A program made the position numbers and the translations under genes. Positions 5,845-51,881 of a stretch of 52,589 bases of DNA are shown in pieces (the first letter of the stretch is position 1; the number at the start of each line of letters is the position of its first letter). This DNA is from Minisyncoccota bacterium (lineage in GTDB: Bacteria > Patescibacteriota > Minisyncoccia > Phycocordibacterales > PALSA-1337): the NCBI GenBank assembly GCA_017991475.1, contig JAGOQK010000006.1:1-52589 (forward strand). The letters are read 5' to 3'. Under the pieces are notes generated by a model. It saw nothing but the letters and a program-made list of their open reading frames with translations. It had not been told where the DNA came from and searched no databases.

Positions 5845-6900
5845 TTATTCTGTTTTTCTACCAGTCGCCGTCCTGTATATCTCGAGAAGTGAGAAGAGGA
5901 ACGCGAGGATGATCGGGCCGAGCACAAATCCTATCGGGCCAAAGAATGAGAGGCCACCAAGAACCGATACGAGGACCATGAACGGGTGAACCTTCATCGT
6001 CCTATTCATGAAGATCGGACCGAGGAAATTGTCGATGAGACCAACGGCAAGCAATCCCCAGATGAGGAGACCGATAGCAGGATTGGTCATGCCAGTAAGG
6101 AGGAGGTACGCGATACCAGGAATAATAACGAGCGAGGTACCGACACCAGGGATGAGTGCTGCTATGGCAGCCACGAAGCCCCAAAGCGCTGGGCTCGGCA
6201 CTCCGAATATCCAGAAGCCAAGACCGACGAGGATACCCTGTATAATACCGACGAAGATGGATCCTGCGAATATTGCGTATATAGCACGCTGCATCTTGCG
6301 CATAATCTTCTCATCATCTGCGTCACCAAGCGGTGAAAGAGCGATGATCTGTCGCTTGAGCTCACGACCATCACGCAGGAAGTAGAAGAGTGCGAGAAGC
6401 ATAACAAATCCGTTGAAAGCCAAGAGCGCAACGCTGGTGAATACCCTATCGAGGTTAGCAAATGCCCATTCCAAGCCCTTCTGGAGAATTGCCGTGATAT
6501 TGAAAGAATCAAACGAATAGTCAGGATAGATGCTGTAAATCTTGAGCGTCAGCACATCTGAGAATGAATTGAGGGTACTGATGAACTCTGATCGTCCACC
6601 CTCATCGATGAGGTAGCCGTACATGGTCTGGATTTCAGAATATATTTTACCGACAATCAAAAGTGCAGGGACGAGTACAATGGCTGCGATTATGATAAGC
6701 GTCAAAAAAGCTGCGAGGCTCGAACGCTCGCGATCTTTGAAGAGCTTGGCTTGCACTTTGCGGTGAAGTGGACCGAACACAACGGACAGCGCCGCAGCGA
6801 GAACTATCGGCGTGAGAAATGGCAAGAACATGAGTACCGCCAGCGTAAGGACGGCAAAAAGAAGGCCGTAGAAGAAATAATTAGGAGTACCGTTTATCAT
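5845..6900 (-). CDS. AI-2E family transporter (PerM/YdiK-like membrane protein)
   Basis: A 351-residue integral membrane protein with several hydrophobic segments, two at the N-terminus (about 10-45) and a dense set from about 60 onward. The region L-I-P-G-V-G-T-S-L near residue 240 and the closing F-G-P-I-G-F-V-L-G-P-I are typical of the AI-2E/PerM family. Members have been linked to autoinducer-2 export or ion transport; the substrate here cannot be told from sequence. It is the first gene of a leftward pair with obg, 4 bp apart. Its own promoter sits directly against the ATG. Confidence 0.88.
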   Translation of the reverse strand: MINGTPNYFFYGLLFAVLTLAVLMFLPFLTPIVLAAALSVVFGPLHRKVQAKLFKDRERSSLAAFLTLIIIAAIVLVPALLIVGKIYSEIQTMYGYLIDEGGRSEFISTLNSFSDVLTLKIYSIYPDYSFDSFNITAILQKGLEWAFANLDRVFTSVALLAFNGFVMLLALFYFLRDGRELKRQIIALSPLGDADDEKIMRKMQRAIYAIFAGSIFVGIIQGILVGLGFWIFGVPSPALWGFVAAIAALIPGVGTSLVIIPGIAYLLLTGMTNPAIGLLIWGLLAVGLIDNFLGPIFMNRTMKVHPFMVLVSVLGGLSFFGPIGFVLGPIILAFLFSLLEIYRTATGRKTE

Positions 6901-6906
6901 AGCATC

Positions 6907-6915
6907 ACTGTACCA
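6907..6915 (-). promoter_or_regulatory. Extended -10 promoter of the AI-2E/obg operon
   Basis: The minus strand reads TGG then TACAGT, with six bases before the ATG at 6900. This implies a leaderless transcript. The -35 region is unremarkable. Confidence 0.5.
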
Positions 6916-6973
6916 TGGTTATCCGATAAAGGAAAGAAATCTGCTAAGGCACGGGCATTCTGAGACACCTCGT

Positions 6974-7468
6974 CTACAGATCAACGACCTCGTCGAGCTT
7001 TTCCTCAATGATTTTTGCGGAATATTCGGCAGTAGACGGCTGGTCGAAAAGGAATCGTCCCGTGAATTTCTTGCCCTGAATAACCATCGGCAACCAATAG
7101 CGATCATCCGACCACATATCATCAAAAGGTATCTTATTGATATCGAACCACTGCGGCCTCATCTCATCACTTTCGACTGGGTCACCCGAGAATTTCGTCG
7201 CACTGAAGATGTGTACTTCCATGACTTTTGAATCATTCTGGAACTCAAACTCGAGAATGCCGACCTTCTTGATATCCAAAGGATTGATTCCCGCTTCTTC
7301 GCGTACCTCTCGTGCAGCGGCCGCATCAATAGCTTCACCTATTTCTACTTTACCACCGAACCCATTCCAGCGACCTACTCCAAAACCTTTCTTCTTCATA
7401 CCAAGAAGGATCTTCCCATCCTGATGGATCATGCAGAGCGTGAAGAGTTTTCGCGGCTTCTGTTCCAT
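6974..7468 (-). CDS. Nudix hydrolase, MTH1/MutT-like
   Basis: A 164-residue Nudix hydrolase. The Nudix box G-x5-E-x7-R-E-U-x-E-E-x-G-U fits exactly at residues 39-61 (G39, E45, R53-E54, E57-E58, G60). The preceding segment L-G-M-K-K-K-G-F-G-x-G-R-W-N-G-F-G-G-K closely follows that of mammalian MTH1 (NUDT1), which hydrolyses 8-oxo-dGTP and related oxidised nucleotides. Sanitisation of the nucleotide pool is therefore the likely role, though this subfamily also includes enzymes with other substrates. The start codon lies 6 bp after the secA stop, so it is probably translated from the secA mRNA. Confidence 0.9.
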   Translation of the reverse strand: MEQKPRKLFTLCMIHQDGKILLGMKKKGFGVGRWNGFGGKVEIGEAIDAAAAREVREEAGINPLDIKKVGILEFEFQNDSKVMEVHIFSATKFSGDPVESDEMRPQWFDINKIPFDDMWSDDRYWLPMVIQGKKFTGRFLFDQPSTAEYSAKIIEEKLDEVVDL

Positions 7469-7474
7469 ATAGTT

Positions 7475-10078
7475 TTACTTACCTTCCCCGTGACACTTCT
7501 TGTACTTCTTCCCCGAACCGCACGGACACGGATCATTCCTGCCAACTTCTGGTTCCTTCTTCGCAGTTGAAGTCGCCTTGCTCGAACCATCCTGCGCACC
7601 GATGATCGATGCATTCTCGTGAATTTCCTTGAATTCAGATGGTTGCGCTGACTGGGGGCCTGAGGTCTCACCTTGAGATGCTCCCTCCTTCGCAACTGGT
7701 ACTACATGAGGAACAACTTTGACAACCTGTGCACTCATCGCTGCCTGCATCTCCTTGAAAAGCCTCAGACCTTCTTTCTTGTATTCCACGAGAGGATCGC
7801 GCTGACCATAGGCGCGGAGATTGACGCTCGAACGGGTATAATCCATGACTTCGAGGTGCTCGACCCAATACATATCAATAGCTTGAAGGAGAACCATGCG
7901 GACCGCGTTGATGAACATGTCGCGACCGAACTCGGCGACCTTCTTAGCGATCGTTTCGTCGAGCGAATCATCGCCGATGAGATCCTTGAGCTCCGCCTCT
8001 ACGTCGTCCACCGTACCAAGCAAAACATTCCTACGTCGTCCATAAATACTCTTTCTCTGAGTATTGATGACATCATCGAACTCGAGGACGTGCTTACGCG
8101 AATCGAAGTTGAAACCCTCAATCTTCTCCTGAGCACTTTCGAGCGAGCGAGAGATCAGCTTGTGCTCGATCGGCTCATCCTCAGCAACACCAAGCTTGCC
8201 CATCATAGACTTGAGCATATCCGAGGCGAAGACGCGCATAAGGGTATCTTCAAGGGATACGAAGAACTGTGTCTGACCTGGATCTCCCTGACGACCCGAA
8301 CGGCCACGGAGCTGATTGTCGATACGGCGAGCCTCATGACGCTCAGTACCGATGACGAAGAGTCCTCCTGCAGCCTTCACCTCAGCAAAGCTCTCGGGCG
8401 TACTCGGGTTGCCACCGAGCTTGATGTCGACACCACGACCCGCCATGTTGGTAGCGATGGTAACCGCACCTCTCTTACCAGCCTGTGCGATGATTTCTCC
8501 CTCCTTCTCATGATTCTTGGCATTGAGGACTTGATGCGGGATACCTTCTGCAGTGAGGAACTGCGAAAGAATTTCGTTCTTCTCAATAGAAACCGTACCT
8601 ATAAGCACCGGCTGACCCTTGTCGTGAACTGCCTTGACTGCTCGCGCGAGTGCCTTGAATTTACCAAGCTCTGTCCTGAAAATTTGGTCGTTACTGTCGA
8701 TACGTACCGGCTTGTTGTTGGTGGGGATCACGGACACTTCGAGGCCGTACACCTTGAAAAATTCCTCTGCGGAAGTAGCGGCAGTTCCCGTCATTCCTGC
8801 AAGCTTAGGATACATACGGAAGAAGTTCTGGAATGTAACCGACGCATAGGTGCGCGATTCCTGCTGGATACCGACACCTTCCTTCGCCTCAATAGCCTGA
8901 TGGAGACCATCGGACCAACGACGACCTGGCTGCATGCGACCGGTGAATTCATCAACAATAACCACTTGATTATCCTTCACGACATATTCTTTATCCTTGT
9001 GATAGAGAGCTGTAGCCTTGATAGCAGTCTCGAGGTGGTGAACCGATTTGATACCTTTGTCGGTGTAAATATTGTCGATACCAAGAGCTTTCTCTGCCTT
9101 GGTGATACCATCCCCAGTAAGTGAAATCGAGCGATGCTTCTCATCGACAGTATAGTCCACATCTTTCGCAAAAGATTTCACCATCGACGCAAACTGACGA
9201 TATATAGACTCAGCGTCGCGGGTAGGTGCAGAAATAATAAGCGGCGTACGAGCCTCATCGATAAGAATAGAGTCTATCTCGTCGACAATCGCATAGTTAG
9301 GTTCGCGCTGACGCAACTTACCCGGAGAATACTCGAGGTTGTCACGGAGATAGTCGAAGCCAAATTCATTGTTGGTTCCATAGGTGATATCAGCAGCATA
9401 CGCTTCCTTGCGCGAAACAGGACGCAAGAATTCATGGACAACCTTGAATGCGCCAAGTTGATCGCGTTCTTTGTCGAGCGGATCCTTCTCGACGGATTGC
9501 GGCTCGTCCTTGTGCGCAGGATCGTATATAAATGACGCCTCATTGTTGATCACGCCGACCGAGAGTCCGAGGAAGGAGTAGATCTGACCCATCCAGACCG
9601 CGTCACGGCGGGAGAGATAGTCATTGACCGTAACGACATGCACACCCTTCCCTGTAAGAGCATTGAGATACGCAGGAAGGGTTGCAACGAGTGTCTTACC
9701 CTCTCCTGTTCTCATCTCAGCGATACCTCCCGAGTTCAAGACCATTCCACCGAGAAGCTGAACATCGAAGTGGCGCTGACCGAGCGTACGACGAGATGCT
9801 TCGCGGACGACGGCGAAGGCTTCTGGCAAAATCTCCTCTAGAATAGGATGCGGCTTTTTTGTGCTTTGAATTTCTGTATTCGGATTTGTCTCGGATTTAG
9901 GATTTCGGATTTCGTGCTCTCGTATCTTCTTCCTGAACTCATCGGTTTTGGCGCGCAGCTCAGCATCCGTAAGCCCCTTCATCACCTCTTCGAATCCATT
10001 TACACGTGCGACATTAGGCTCAAATGCTTTGACATTCTTGGTGTGAGAACGGTTGAAAATGCTTGAAAATAGGGCCAT
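7475..10078 (-). CDS. secA: Protein translocase ATPase SecA
   Basis: An 867-residue SecA, the motor of the Sec translocon. Recognisable in order are the Walker A region M-R-T-G-E-G-K-T, V-T-V-N-D-Y-L-S-R-R-D, the Walker B region V-D-E-I-D-S-I-L-I-D-E-A, the C-terminal helicase lobe with G-R-x-G-R-Q-G-D-P-G, and a zinc-binding SEC-C tail C-P-C-G-S-G-K-K-Y-K-K-C-H. The start at 10078 gives the usual M-x-x-F-x-x-I-F N-terminus; another ATG at 10093 would add five residues. Residues near 57-72 (9881-9912) are encoded by degenerate heptanucleotide repeats and look like an extra insertion. It lies 25 bp behind murB and just ahead of the Nudix gene. Confidence 0.97.
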   Translation of the reverse strand: MALFSSIFNRSHTKNVKAFEPNVARVNGFEEVMKGLTDAELRAKTDEFRKKIREHEIRNPKSETNPNTEIQSTKKPHPILEEILPEAFAVVREASRRTLGQRHFDVQLLGGMVLNSGGIAEMRTGEGKTLVATLPAYLNALTGKGVHVVTVNDYLSRRDAVWMGQIYSFLGLSVGVINNEASFIYDPAHKDEPQSVEKDPLDKERDQLGAFKVVHEFLRPVSRKEAYAADITYGTNNEFGFDYLRDNLEYSPGKLRQREPNYAIVDEIDSILIDEARTPLIISAPTRDAESIYRQFASMVKSFAKDVDYTVDEKHRSISLTGDGITKAEKALGIDNIYTDKGIKSVHHLETAIKATALYHKDKEYVVKDNQVVIVDEFTGRMQPGRRWSDGLHQAIEAKEGVGIQQESRTYASVTFQNFFRMYPKLAGMTGTAATSAEEFFKVYGLEVSVIPTNNKPVRIDSNDQIFRTELGKFKALARAVKAVHDKGQPVLIGTVSIEKNEILSQFLTAEGIPHQVLNAKNHEKEGEIIAQAGKRGAVTIATNMAGRGVDIKLGGNPSTPESFAEVKAAGGLFVIGTERHEARRIDNQLRGRSGRQGDPGQTQFFVSLEDTLMRVFASDMLKSMMGKLGVAEDEPIEHKLISRSLESAQEKIEGFNFDSRKHVLEFDDVINTQRKSIYGRRRNVLLGTVDDVEAELKDLIGDDSLDETIAKKVAEFGRDMFINAVRMVLLQAIDMYWVEHLEVMDYTRSSVNLRAYGQRDPLVEYKKEGLRLFKEMQAAMSAQVVKVVPHVVPVAKEGASQGETSGPQSAQPSEFKEIHENASIIGAQDGSSKATSTAKKEPEVGRNDPCPCGSGKKYKKCHGEGK
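9881..9912. repeat. Degenerate heptanucleotide repeat inside secA
   Basis: Three contiguous heptads (CGGATTT, AGGATTT, CGGATTT at 9892-9912) follow an earlier CGGATTT at 9881. The frame is preserved through the run. It belongs to the same sequence class as the murB repeat at 10885-10918. Confidence 0.7.
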
Positions 10079-35819: not shown

Positions 35820-36965
35820 ATGAAAATCGTCATCGCTACTCCTATATATCCTCCCGAGATCGGCGGACCTGCGACTTATACCAAGGAGCTTTGCGAGCGT
35901 CTTCATAATACTCACAATATCACTGTTGTCGCATATACCGATGTAGGTGAATCATTTGAGGGTACCAAGCTCGTCCGTGTCAGCAAACACCGCCCACTCC
36001 CCGTCCGCCTGCTCCGCTATTTCATGACCCTCTTCCGAGAAGCTCGTGGCGCTGATCTCATCTATGTTCAGAATGCCATGGCTGCTGGTCTCCCGACCGC
36101 ACTCGCCTGTATGATCTTGCGCAAACCTTTTGTCTTGAAATTCGTCGGCGATGAAGCCTGGGAGCGTGCGACCCAGAAGCGTCTCACCACCAAGCGTCTG
36201 GAGGAATTCCTCGCGACTCCTGATGGTACCTGGAAGATTCGCGCAATGATGCTCATCCAGGGCTGGGTGCTCCGTCGTGCAGCCTGTGTGACAACCCCAT
36301 CCGCATATCTCTCCGAGGAATTGATCAAGGCTTACGGCGTTCGCCGCGAGCGTGCTGTGGTCAACTACAATGCCGCAGAGGAAACTGAAGTTCTCCCATT
36401 CGAGCCGACACCTCCAGTCCCTCATCAGATTGCGGTCACCGCACGCCTCACCGCTTGGAAAGGTATCGACGGCATCATACGCGCCATGAAGATAGTTCTC
36501 AAAAAATTCCCCGATGCTCGCGTCATCATCGCCGGCGATGGTCCAGAGACTGACAGTCTGAAACAGCTCGCGCGCGACACGGGTGTCGAGGATGCGGTCT
36601 CATTCCTGGGCAAAGTCTCCCGCGCCGAGACCTGGCATATCCGCAAGAATTCATCTGTCTACATCCTCAACTCTACCTACGAAGGACTTCCCCACACCGT
36701 ACTCACGAGTTTCGCCGCAGGTATTCCGGTCATCGCCACTGATATCTCGGGCACCAATGAAGCGGTCTATGATGGTAAGACTGGTCTCCTTGTGAAGCCG
36801 GGTGATGATGTTGCGCTCGCTGCTGCTATAGAGAAGCTCTTCACTGATCCTGCACTCTACAATGGGTTGGTTGATGGCGGAATGAAACTGCTCAAAGAAA
36901 AGTTTTCCTGGGAGGGGCATCTCGAGGGGTTAGCGGGAATTTTCGAGAAGGTGGTGAGGAAATAA
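35820..36965 (+). CDS. GT4-family glycosyltransferase
   Basis: A 381-residue GT-B enzyme of standard length. The N-terminus T-P-I-Y-P-P-E-I-G-G-P-A-T-Y carries the glycine-rich loop; the donor domain has A-R-L-T-A-W-K-G-I-D-G-I-I and S-T-Y-E-G-L-P-H-T-V-L-T-S-F-A-A-G-I-P (E-x7-S instead of E-x7-E). It is monocistronic, divergent from the dehydrogenase, and followed by the hairpin array at 36975. Confidence 0.88.
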   Translation: MKIVIATPIYPPEIGGPATYTKELCERLHNTHNITVVAYTDVGESFEGTKLVRVSKHRPLPVRLLRYFMTLFREARGADLIYVQNAMAAGLPTALACMILRKPFVLKFVGDEAWERATQKRLTTKRLEEFLATPDGTWKIRAMMLIQGWVLRRAACVTTPSAYLSEELIKAYGVRRERAVVNYNAAEETEVLPFEPTPPVPHQIAVTARLTAWKGIDGIIRAMKIVLKKFPDARVIIAGDGPETDSLKQLARDTGVEDAVSFLGKVSRAETWHIRKNSSVYILNSTYEGLPHTVLTSFAAGIPVIATDISGTNEAVYDGKTGLLVKPGDDVALAAAIEKLFTDPALYNGLVDGGMKLLKEKFSWEGHLEGLAGIFEKVVRK

Positions 36966-37439
36966 ACTATTTGCAACATACAAGGATTTCTTGTGTGTTC
37001 AAGACGGTGACATATTTCAGTTATCCGGAATTTCCGGAATAGTTAAAATTGGACAAGAATTCAGTATGTAAGGAATTCTTACATACCCAAAGAATATTCG
37101 GCAACTGTTTCCAAAACGGAAACAGTTCAAGGTAAATTAATATTTCCAGTTATTCGGAAATTCCGAATAACTGAATAGGAACTTGTAAGGAATCCTTACA
37201 AGTTCAAAATACATCACACAAAATAATCCCTGCCTAGTTGTGGGTCTTTTTCTATTTGATACAATTCTCAAATCAGATCGTCAGTTATTCTCGACCAACA
37301 AGACATTACGACAGTTTCTACAATTCAATAATCCAGTGACGCAAAGTCGCTGTCTCTTTTTTGCAACTATTCGAGATTTCCGAATAGTACATAAGGATAG
37401 AGATTTTGATTGCTTAACAACTTAATTAAATATATACAT
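36966..37439. repeat. Non-coding hairpin array upstream of the RhuM-like gene
   Basis: Eight hairpins in 414 bp. H1 36975-36999 (10 bp plus one G-T), H2 37018-37044 (imperfect), H3 37064-37086 (9 bp), H4 37103-37127 (10 bp), H5 37147-37173 (11 bp), H6 37179-37205 (11 bp), H7 37334-37352 (7 bp, one G-T), H8 37366-37388 (8 bp). Loops are 5 nt in H1-H7 and 7 nt in H8. H2 and H5 share the arm CAGTTAT(T/C)CGG; H3 and H6 share TGTAAG-GAAT. Between H6 and H7 (37206-37333) no structure or ORF is convincing. The sequence is AT-rich and unlike its surroundings. Confidence 0.85.
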
Positions 37440-37952
37440 ATGAGTAATGAAAAAAATACAATTATAATTTATGAGGACACGAGCGGCAATGTTGAGTTAC
37501 GTGCAGATATTGAGAAAGACACAATCTGGGCAACGCTAAGCCAGATAGCCGACTTGTTTGATCGTGATAAATCAGTCATTTCAAAACACATCAAGAATAT
37601 CTACAAAGAAGGAGAACTTGATAGAGATTCAGTTGTTGCAAAAAATGCAACAACTGCTAAAGATGGTAAAACATACATGGTTGAATATTACAATCTGGAT
37701 GCAATCCTATCTGTTGGATACAGAGTAAGCTCCAAGAAAGCTACCCTCTTCCGCATCTGGGCAACCGGAGTTCTGCGTGAATATCTCAAGAATGGCTATG
37801 CATTACAGAGATCAAAATTGCATGAATCACCAGAGGCGCTGGAGGGACTCGATGAAACATTGACTCTCCTCAAGTCAGAAAAATATCCAGGTAAACTCAA
37901 AGGAAGTATTACTCTCAAAGTAACTAAGAAACTTGAGCCGAAAAAGAAATAA
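37440..37952 (+). CDS. RhuM-family protein, short form
   Basis: A 170-residue protein matching the N-terminal RhuM region: T-I-W-A-T-L-S-Q-I-A-D-L-F-D-R-D-K-S-V-I-S-K-H-I looks like a DNA-binding helix-turn-helix, and V-E-Y-Y-N-L-D-A-I-L-S-V-G-Y-R-V with R-I-W-A-T-G-V-L-R-E-Y-L is the family hallmark. Full RhuM proteins are about 300-350 residues; this ends with a Lys-rich tail instead of the usual C-terminal half. RhuM proteins are found in genomic islands and their biochemical role is not established. ATG 37440 is used rather than TTG 37410. Base composition is more AT-rich than its neighbours, hinting at transfer. Confidence 0.8.
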   Translation: MSNEKNTIIIYEDTSGNVELRADIEKDTIWATLSQIADLFDRDKSVISKHIKNIYKEGELDRDSVVAKNATTAKDGKTYMVEYYNLDAILSVGYRVSSKKATLFRIWATGVLREYLKNGYALQRSKLHESPEALEGLDETLTLLKSEKYPGKLKGSITLKVTKKLEPKKK

Positions 37953-38912
37953 TTATCTAACCCTCTTCTCTTTGAACCATTCGACAAGTCGCCCCATCCC
38001 CTCCTCAAGACTCACCTTCGGCTCCCACCCGATCAATTTCTTCGCTTTTGTAATATCGGCACAGGTAGTCTCTACACTCGCCGAGTGACTCGGACGCATC
38101 TTGCGAGTTGCAGTCTTGCCAGTCGCCTTTTCGAGAACAACGAGAAGTTCGAGCAACGAAGTAGGTTTCGTATTACCGACATTGAGCACCTCATGGCCGA
38201 GCGGTTTTTGCATAGCGAGGATCGTCGCATCAGCAACATCACCCACATAGGTGTAGTCACGCTTGCGGGAGCCATCACCAGAGATCTCGATTTCTTTGCC
38301 CGTCAGCAACGCGTTGGTCCAGACATACGGCACCATTCCTGGACGATTGTTCTCACCATAGGCGTTGAAGAATCGGAGGCAAGTCACATTCAAGCCAAAG
38401 TTGTGGTGATATGCGTAGGCAAAAAGTTCCGTTGCGCGTTTGGTAGCACCATACGGAGAGAGTGGCATATCAGCAGTCTCAGACTCCACCCACGGGAATC
38501 GAGGAGTATTTCCGTAGACCGAAGACGATGATGCCATCGCCACATTCTTGACCTTATAGTCACGCGCGAGATCGAGCACATTGAGCGTGCCGTTGATATT
38601 CACATCGACATATTCATGCGGGTTGTCGACTGCGTTGCGCGTATCCCCAAGTCCTGCAAGATGAATAATATATAAAGGATTTTCCTTTTCAAAAACAGCC
38701 TTGAGTGCAGCTTTGTCACGAATATCCACGCGCTCGAGCTTGAATACCTCCGGATACGCGAGGAGTGGAGCTACATTCTCTTCTTTGAATGCAGGATCGT
38801 AGACGGTATTGAAATTGTCGACACAGATGACACGATACCCGCTGTCGATAAGCTTGCGGATCACATGAGACCCGATGAATCCTGCGCCGCCAGTTACGAG
38901 TACTGTTTCCAT
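37953..38912 (-). CDS. NAD-dependent epimerase, UDP-glucuronate 4-epimerase-like SDR
   Basis: A 319-residue extended SDR. The cofactor motif is T-G-G-A-G-F-I-G-S (7-15), the catalytic triad uses S-S-S-S-V-Y-G and Y-G-A-T-K (Y-x3-K), and R-F-F-N-A-Y-G-E-N-N-R-P-G-M is close to the block in UDP-glucuronate 4-epimerases. With the dehydrogenase at 34858 this would convert UDP-glucose via UDP-GlcA to UDP-GalA. UDP-glucose 4-epimerase activity is an alternative. ATG 38912 gives the canonical M-E-T-V-L-V-T-G-G start. The gene abuts the RhuM gene tail to tail with no spacer, so there is no room for a separate terminator. Confidence 0.87.
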   Translation of the reverse strand: METVLVTGGAGFIGSHVIRKLIDSGYRVICVDNFNTVYDPAFKEENVAPLLAYPEVFKLERVDIRDKAALKAVFEKENPLYIIHLAGLGDTRNAVDNPHEYVDVNINGTLNVLDLARDYKVKNVAMASSSSVYGNTPRFPWVESETADMPLSPYGATKRATELFAYAYHHNFGLNVTCLRFFNAYGENNRPGMVPYVWTNALLTGKEIEISGDGSRKRDYTYVGDVADATILAMQKPLGHEVLNVGNTKPTSLLELLVVLEKATGKTATRKMRPSHSASVETTCADITKAKKLIGWEPKVSLEEGMGRLVEWFKEKRVR

Positions 38913-49638: not shown

Positions 49639-49677
49639 GCTACAGTCACACATCATCAGTGACTGTAGCTTTTTTTA
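49639..49677 (+). terminator. Rho-independent terminator after the 49225 gene
   Basis: A perfect 11-bp stem (GCTACAGTCAC with GTGACTGTAGC), 9-nt loop, and seven or more T. Confidence 0.9.
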
Positions 49678-49722
49678 TTTGAAAATACCTCAAATACAAA
49701 ACTAGAATTCCCCACACTTTTC

Positions 49723-51743: not shown

Positions 51744-51881
51744 AAAGTGCAGTGGTACAGGATACATATCTCGAGGTACATTCGCAGGTGATTTTGAGCA
51801 CAAAATCACCGAGGACTAGGAAACTTTCTGCAGAAAGTTTCCGTGTACCGAGGGATATCGTATCCTGTACCACTGCGCTTT
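51744..51881. repeat. Three-way-junction inverted-repeat structure upstream of mraY
   Basis: Outer arms 51744-51780 and 51844-51881 pair over about 35 positions; the first 22 are perfect apart from one G-U. Inside are two perfect hairpins: 51787-51810 (9-bp stem, GAGCAC loop) and 51819-51842 (10-bp stem, TGCA loop). The result is a clover-like three-way junction 138 nt long. It lies between the NlpC/P60-like gene and the mraY promoter. It lacks a T tract, so it is not a standard terminator. Confidence 0.85.

Follow-up and report, generated by a model that had tools for sequence, protein, structure and literature searches.

Palindromes inside RhuM-type genes as probable operators of their own proteins, and a mixed array of such sites beside a short RhuM gene of a Minisyncoccota bacterium

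RhuM-type proteins with a winged helix-turn-helix (wHTH) very probably have a binding site within their own genes, as judged from the sequences of the proteins and of their DNA. The palindromes found in the open reading frames (ORFs) can with high confidence be regarded as the cognate sites of the RhuM proteins encoded there. The overall interpretation, which we consider probable, is that palindromes of this kind are operators of RhuM wHTH proteins, and that a dense palindrome array in the present window (the whole stretch of 52,589 nucleotides analysed, from a Minisyncoccota bacterium) consists of operators for RhuM proteins of other specificities.

The genome around the window is 771 kb and 95% complete. 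A 0.47-kb non-coding stretch and a RhuM-type gene lie between a glycosyltransferase gene (ending at 36965) and a reverse-strand epimerase gene (ending at 37953). The interval 36975-37388 is non-coding and densely packed with palindromes, among which the first-pass annotation distinguished eight hairpins, H1 to H8. The features of the locus are listed below, with mismatches counted over eight positions.

36975..36999, forward strand: H1, palindrome CAACATACAAGGATTTCTTGTGTGTTC, centre 36987; nearest class CAAGG, 3/8 mismatches
37018..37044, forward strand: H2, palindrome of the TCCGG class (helix type RT[IV]xEH), right arm imperfect; 0/8 mismatches
37062..37088, forward strand: H3, palindrome of the GTAAGG class; 1/8 mismatches against the RhuM site of E. 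coli L171
37103..37127, forward strand: H4, palindrome of the TTTCC class (helix type AAISKH/PAISKH); 0/8 mismatches
37147..37173, forward strand: H5, perfect palindrome of the TTCGG class (helix type PTINEH); 0/8 mismatches
37179..37205, forward strand: H6, perfect palindrome of the GTAAGG class (helix type SQAITQH); 0/8 mismatches
37334..37352, forward strand: H7, terminator-like stem, then TCTCTTTTTT; 3/8 mismatches to the nearest family site
37364..37390, forward strand: H8, palindrome of the TTCGG class, one arm altered; 0/8 mismatches
37440..37952, forward strand: short RhuM-type gene, 170 aa, with the wHTH and the YYNLD..FRIWA region only
37560..37586, forward strand: recognition-helix codons, residues 41-49 (DRDKSVISK); AlphaFold2 helix 44-57; peak of covariation
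37630..37656, forward strand: the gene's own ORF site CAGTTGTTGCAAAAAATGCAACAACTG (CAGTTGTTGCA AAAAA TGCAACAACTG), TTGC class; codons of wing strand 1, residues 66-72

Could such a cluster arise by chance, or consist of terminators or of a dispersed REP-like repeat? In the 470-bp region five palindromes have a score of at least 8, while 500 dinucleotide shuffles give a mean of 0.15 and a maximum of 2; at a score of at least 7 there are seven, against a shuffle mean of 0.57 and a maximum of 4. Moreover, these site classes occur only in RhuM genes, in their remnants and in arrays, and are not dispersed as a REP-like repeat would be. H7 and a second stem are indeed terminator-like, but the shuffles and the confinement rule this explanation out for all but one or two of the hairpins, and we give it almost no weight. 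The symmetry of H7 is weak, unlike that of the other hairpins, and H7 is probably outside the array. Thus the claim that the hairpins form a cluster beyond chance stands for seven of them, and the recurrence of arms noticed at first reading for H2/H5 and H3/H6 is real: H2, H5 and H8 share one family (D1), H3 and H6 another (D3). The uniform loops of 5 nt reported at that time are partly a matter of reading; all sites are aligned on odd centres (36987, 37031, 37075, 37115, 37160, 37192 and 37377). The first six of them are spaced by 44, 44, 40, 45 and 32 bp, and H5 and H6 are perfect 13-bp dyads about one central base.

The array of the window comprises seven sites of about five specificities; none is of the TTGC class of the adjacent RhuM gene, an absence which by itself is without significance. 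H1 has the weakest family resemblance of the seven and fits the repertoire of RhuM sites poorly. The flanks of H4, GGCAACT..AGTTCAAGG, resemble RhuM codons. With regard to CRISPR and integron attC arrays, the units here differ in sequence, and of the ORFs read around the array, which encode a glycosyltransferase, an epimerase and RhuM, none is a cas or integrase gene. Two more pairs of adjacent strong palindromes were noticed in the window, at 49639-49701 and 51787-51842; as pairs, they are not near RhuM classes.

The protein encoded at 37440 matches Pfam PF13310 with 77.1 bits (cut-off 33.7), at profile positions 1-81 of 252 only, and PADLOC PDC-S05 with an E-value of 3e-54. It is homologous to the RhuM family (PF13310; rhuM of Salmonella SPI-3) across the whole N-terminal domain, and differs as a short form which ends after the FRIWA region, without a Fic or RhuM C-terminal domain. 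This short subfamily is common to the protein and its relatives, while longer RhuM-type members carry Fic/DOC (TIGR01550 match) or RhuM C-terminal domains. The AlphaFold2 model is a winged helix-turn-helix with helices at residues 33-39 and 44-57 and wing strands at 66-72 and 78-84, and its mean pLDDT is 94-97 for residues 31-60 and 93-95 for residues 61-100. A sequence search against solved structures gave no useful relative of the protein, and Foldseek gave weak winged-helix matches only. The most informative palindrome of the locus, overlooked at first reading, is the one within the RhuM ORF at 37630-37656. Its pattern GTTGCA-N5-TGCAAC has a single exact copy in the 771-kb genome, inside this ORF, and no other intact RhuM gene was found in the genome.

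Is a palindrome inside the ORF a general feature of RhuM-type genes? Homologues were taken from 147 related genomes, 34 loci of other species, 80 viral contigs, Salmonella and E. coli. In this convenience sample from several bacterial phyla and phages, whose related genes are non-independent, 156 of 161 unique RhuM-type genes have a 23-29-bp palindrome in the same, or almost the same, position of the ORF, nearly always in the wing-strand codons of the wHTH. The rhuM gene of Salmonella has one as well. In a stricter test over whole genes the ORF palindrome is found in 137 of 153, as against 16 for the next-best palindrome at that level. The arrays which the first-pass annotation proposed to look for upstream of RhuM homologues are missing from most of them, but nearly all have one palindrome within the gene.

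The sequence of the ORF palindrome differs widely between genes, yet it stays symmetric. Its symmetry is 10.45, against 4.89 in synonymous recodings of the same peptides, and 188 of 14,900 recodings come up to it. Furthermore, the same core is translated in different frames in different genes, for example as SVCAKFAHT and as SNVQKMHIA, which indicates that the DNA is conserved rather than the peptide. Three genes (L034, L196 and L200) have the palindrome AGAAAATTCGGAAATTCCGAATTTTCT 8 nt further downstream and in another frame, and their helix KSTINEH fits the TTCGG class.

When the genes are grouped by the core of their palindrome, their recognition helices are grouped too, as follows.

Core TTGC: helix S[VT]IS[RK]H
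Core GTGC: helix DRSVITKH
Core TTTCC: helix PAISKH/AAISKH
Core GTTCC: helix PAITKH/SQAVTKH
Core TCCGG: helix RT[VI]NEH
Core TTCGG/TTAGG: helix PTINEH
Core CAAGG: helix KQN[IV]SLH
Core CCGAGG: helix DNVSLH

The correspondence was examined by leave-one-out prediction of five core bases. Since related genes are non-independent, neighbours were limited to those whose remaining protein sequence shares no more than 50% identity. The gene with the nearest helix agrees with the true core at 0.865 of the bases, the one with the nearest rest-of-protein at 0.464 and a random one at 0.406. In 113 genes the helix is the better predictor of the core, in 2 the poorer (p=3e-31). When a window of nine residues is scanned along the protein, the score peaks only at residues 40-52, besides the window overlapping the site's own codons. 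The helix of the 37440 protein, DRDKSVISKH, is of the type paired with TTGC sites. Hence binding of H3, H5 and H6 by this protein, as implied at first reading, is not favoured, the code predicting TTGC sites for it instead. The broader proposal of a set of binding sites connected with RhuM fares well, for the array palindromes are predicted sites with good support from sequence comparison.

Two further comparisons point to the pairing of helix and site. Four phage-borne genes have no ORF palindrome (L116, L119, L121 and L128, with the same site and the same protein in L119 and L121). Each of them has the TTTCC palindrome AGTTGTTTCCATTTTGGAAATAACT some 200-270 bp upstream, outside coding sequence, and their helix LPAISKH is assigned to TTTCC by the code. 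Reader and site thus remain matched even where the site is non-coding. The rhuM genes of Salmonella (L166) and E. coli (L173) are 85% identical in nt 1-105 and 94-98% identical beyond nt 315, while in nt 105-315, which hold helix, palindrome and wing, they are 59 and 53% identical. Helix, palindrome and wing change here as one block of about 200 bp. Most of the E. coli genomes examined hold rhuM remnants only.

One may ask whether the hairpins act as RNA, as a structured leader or a CsrB-like sponge with repeated hairpins. Both strands of the region fold far more strongly than shuffled sequences (z of -7.9 and -8.4, equalled by none of 100 shuffles), and hairpins are seen both upstream of and within an ORF. 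However, the symmetry is equal on both strands and no Rfam family scores above its cut-off. Among the arm pairs of 110 distinct ORF sites, 60 of 880 are mismatched, namely 19 G.T, 12 A.C and 29 others, so G.T is not clearly in excess of A.C. Because an RNA stem would strongly favour G.T, and because the arms covary with a DNA-recognition helix, recognition as DNA is favoured, and the structured RNA suggested at first reading is very improbable.

Where else do the sites occur? The exact 17-mer ATCCGGAAWTTCCGGAT of the TCCGG class is present at 10 places in 147 genomes, 9 of them inside RhuM-type genes and one in an adjacent array. The TTTCC pattern is found in one RhuM gene, beside one RhuM remnant and in a free-standing array (G024:C41), and TGTAAGGANTYCTTACA only in the array of the window and two arrays of genome G024. 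For the site classes and pattern lengths searched there is no sign of a wider regulon. With a looser, shorter definition of the site, the density is 0.03 per kb far from RhuM genes (chance matches), 0.13 per kb within 800 bp of them and 1.85 in coding matches. The reversed control pattern CAAAGGTNNNACCTTTG is an unrelated repeated palindrome, with 8 copies in one genome (G061) and 2 in another of the same order (G067).

Most RhuM genes are without an array. Mixed arrays resembling that of the window were found at five further loci.

L083: five sites, following a RhuM gene
L084: seven sites, almost head to tail at a spacing of 23-30 bp, in the gap that separates a RhuM gene from the gene beside it
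L193: two sites upstream of the gene
L113: two sites upstream of the gene
L189 (G024:C41), 6657-6812: four free-standing sites

The arrays of L083 and L084 include the class of their neighbour. For L189, no RhuM gene was found in the 14 kb examined around the array; the ORF downstream of it (6862-7620) looks SPFH/band-7-like by eye. Array sites of the form CAACT..AGTTC keep this orientation, and GAACT..AGTTG was never seen (27-mers C..C, never G..G). The two units of L113, 48 nt each, read KDSV....TGSDGN with identical flanks and different cores. Array units were apparently copied from RhuM ORFs, as these flanks and orientations suggest. A relative at the L084 locus (L070, flanks 80-84% identical) has no array and no more than a single decayed site, so arrays are gained and lost.

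Are the arrays then simply debris of past RhuM genes, or duplicated pieces of ORFs, without present function? The ORF-like flanks and the orientation kept in the units, the RhuM-like translation of the two L113 units and the absence or decay of arrays in close relatives (L070 against L084) would all be expected of debris. On the other hand, only 26-48 nt are left around each site and the array gave no further match to RhuM coding sequence. The perfect 13-bp arms and the close regular spacing argue for retention by selection, and differing specificities adjoin one another. We regard debris as unlikely, though it is the rival to be taken most seriously. Another possibility is that the units are silent cassettes, which replace the palindrome of an expressed gene by gene conversion and so alter its wing. 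Most units translate into open RhuM-like wing peptides in ORF orientation, and two near-identical genes (L160 and L141) differ over 330 bp only within the palindrome. But specificity follows the recognition helix, which is absent from the units, so that a swap would uncouple reader and site, and the exchange between E. coli and Salmonella covers helix and site together. This makes silent cassettes improbable, and binding of the array by RhuM proteins is preferred to both alternatives.

According to the mechanism that we propose, each RhuM-type gene would carry the site of its own protein in its wing codons, 40-70 bp from the recognition-helix codons. As both would lie near each other in the same ORF, reader and site would be inherited and swapped together. 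RhuM would bind the palindrome as a dimer, and the most likely consequence, which we think fairly probable, is autoregulation of the gene in cis. Transcription might be blocked some 190 bp past the start of the ORF; in the four exceptional genes, control would be exerted from upstream. An operator within the ORF would silence a mobile self-repressing toxin gene behind whatever promoter it comes to lie. What would the array do? The function of the array is the least certain step. Most likely, though here we are evenly poised, it binds RhuM proteins of other specificities, either titrating them or controlling the short RhuM gene. Candidate ligands may be RhuM proteins brought in by mobile elements or encoded by paralogues; as the genome has no other intact RhuM gene, they would come from elsewhere or be gone by now. 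A bolder scenario, which we put forward tentatively, is that RhuM genes are self-addressed selfish genes and the arrays both a record and a decoy, that is, a DNA-site-based immunity between mobile genes. In such a scenario RhuM would act on a target that is borne by its ORF and, for the tested classes, hardly found anywhere else; ORF-derived target sites of many specificities would be assembled by cells or by competing elements.

RhuM proteins take their name from a virulence island and are found widely among bacteria and phages; to our knowledge nothing beyond a proposed toxin role has been assigned to them. RhuM was proposed as a toxin in R-M/PrrC neighbourhoods, where it is often fused to DOC (PMC3710099). 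It is the PADLOC candidate PDC-S05, and RhuM fused to Fic/DOC is PDC-S23. In our literature search on RhuM, no text was found that describes the ORF site, the code linking reader and site, or the arrays. The nearest parallel for the code is the LacI family, in which a few helix residues predict operator bases family-wide, regulators act locally and operators were looked for in intergenic regions (PMC2978694). The likeness lies in the family-wide code from helix to site. Unlike in LacI regulators, the RhuM site lies in the codons of the regulator's own DNA-binding domain, and separate arrays mix specificities. It differs from the operator of a classical autorepressor too, being usually inside the ORF and not in the promoter region, with an upstream position in the four exceptions only. 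In operator clusters and decoy arrays, closely spaced sites bind or titrate a regulator; those we know of have one specificity, while RhuM arrays mix several and look ORF-derived. Rickettsia palindromic elements are also palindromes within coding genes and read as peptide, but they are longer mobile elements in many genes, whereas the RhuM site is single and fixed, belongs to one family and matches the helix of the protein. The family-wide site within the gene gives a readable recognition code for RhuM, and it would be a rare case in which a protein-coding segment is the same DNA as the predicted binding site of its protein. Mixed arrays of RhuM sites would add a novel type of element, regulatory or decoy, that acts between mobile genes.

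Some minor observations were made along with the ORF palindromes. A RhuM remnant (G000:C3:15734-15844, L075) corresponds to residues 108-144, is 68% identical and is without a RhuM-type palindrome. In the RhuM genes of two Candidatus Gracilibacteria (L036 and L059) there is an in-frame TGA just past the palindrome, consistent with the recoded TGA of this group. The genes L160 and L141, of Streptococcus satellite phages, are identical except for two adjacent bases of the palindrome; the difference, TG to AT, turns an imperfect palindrome into a perfect one, and looks like a template-switch correction or selection on symmetry.
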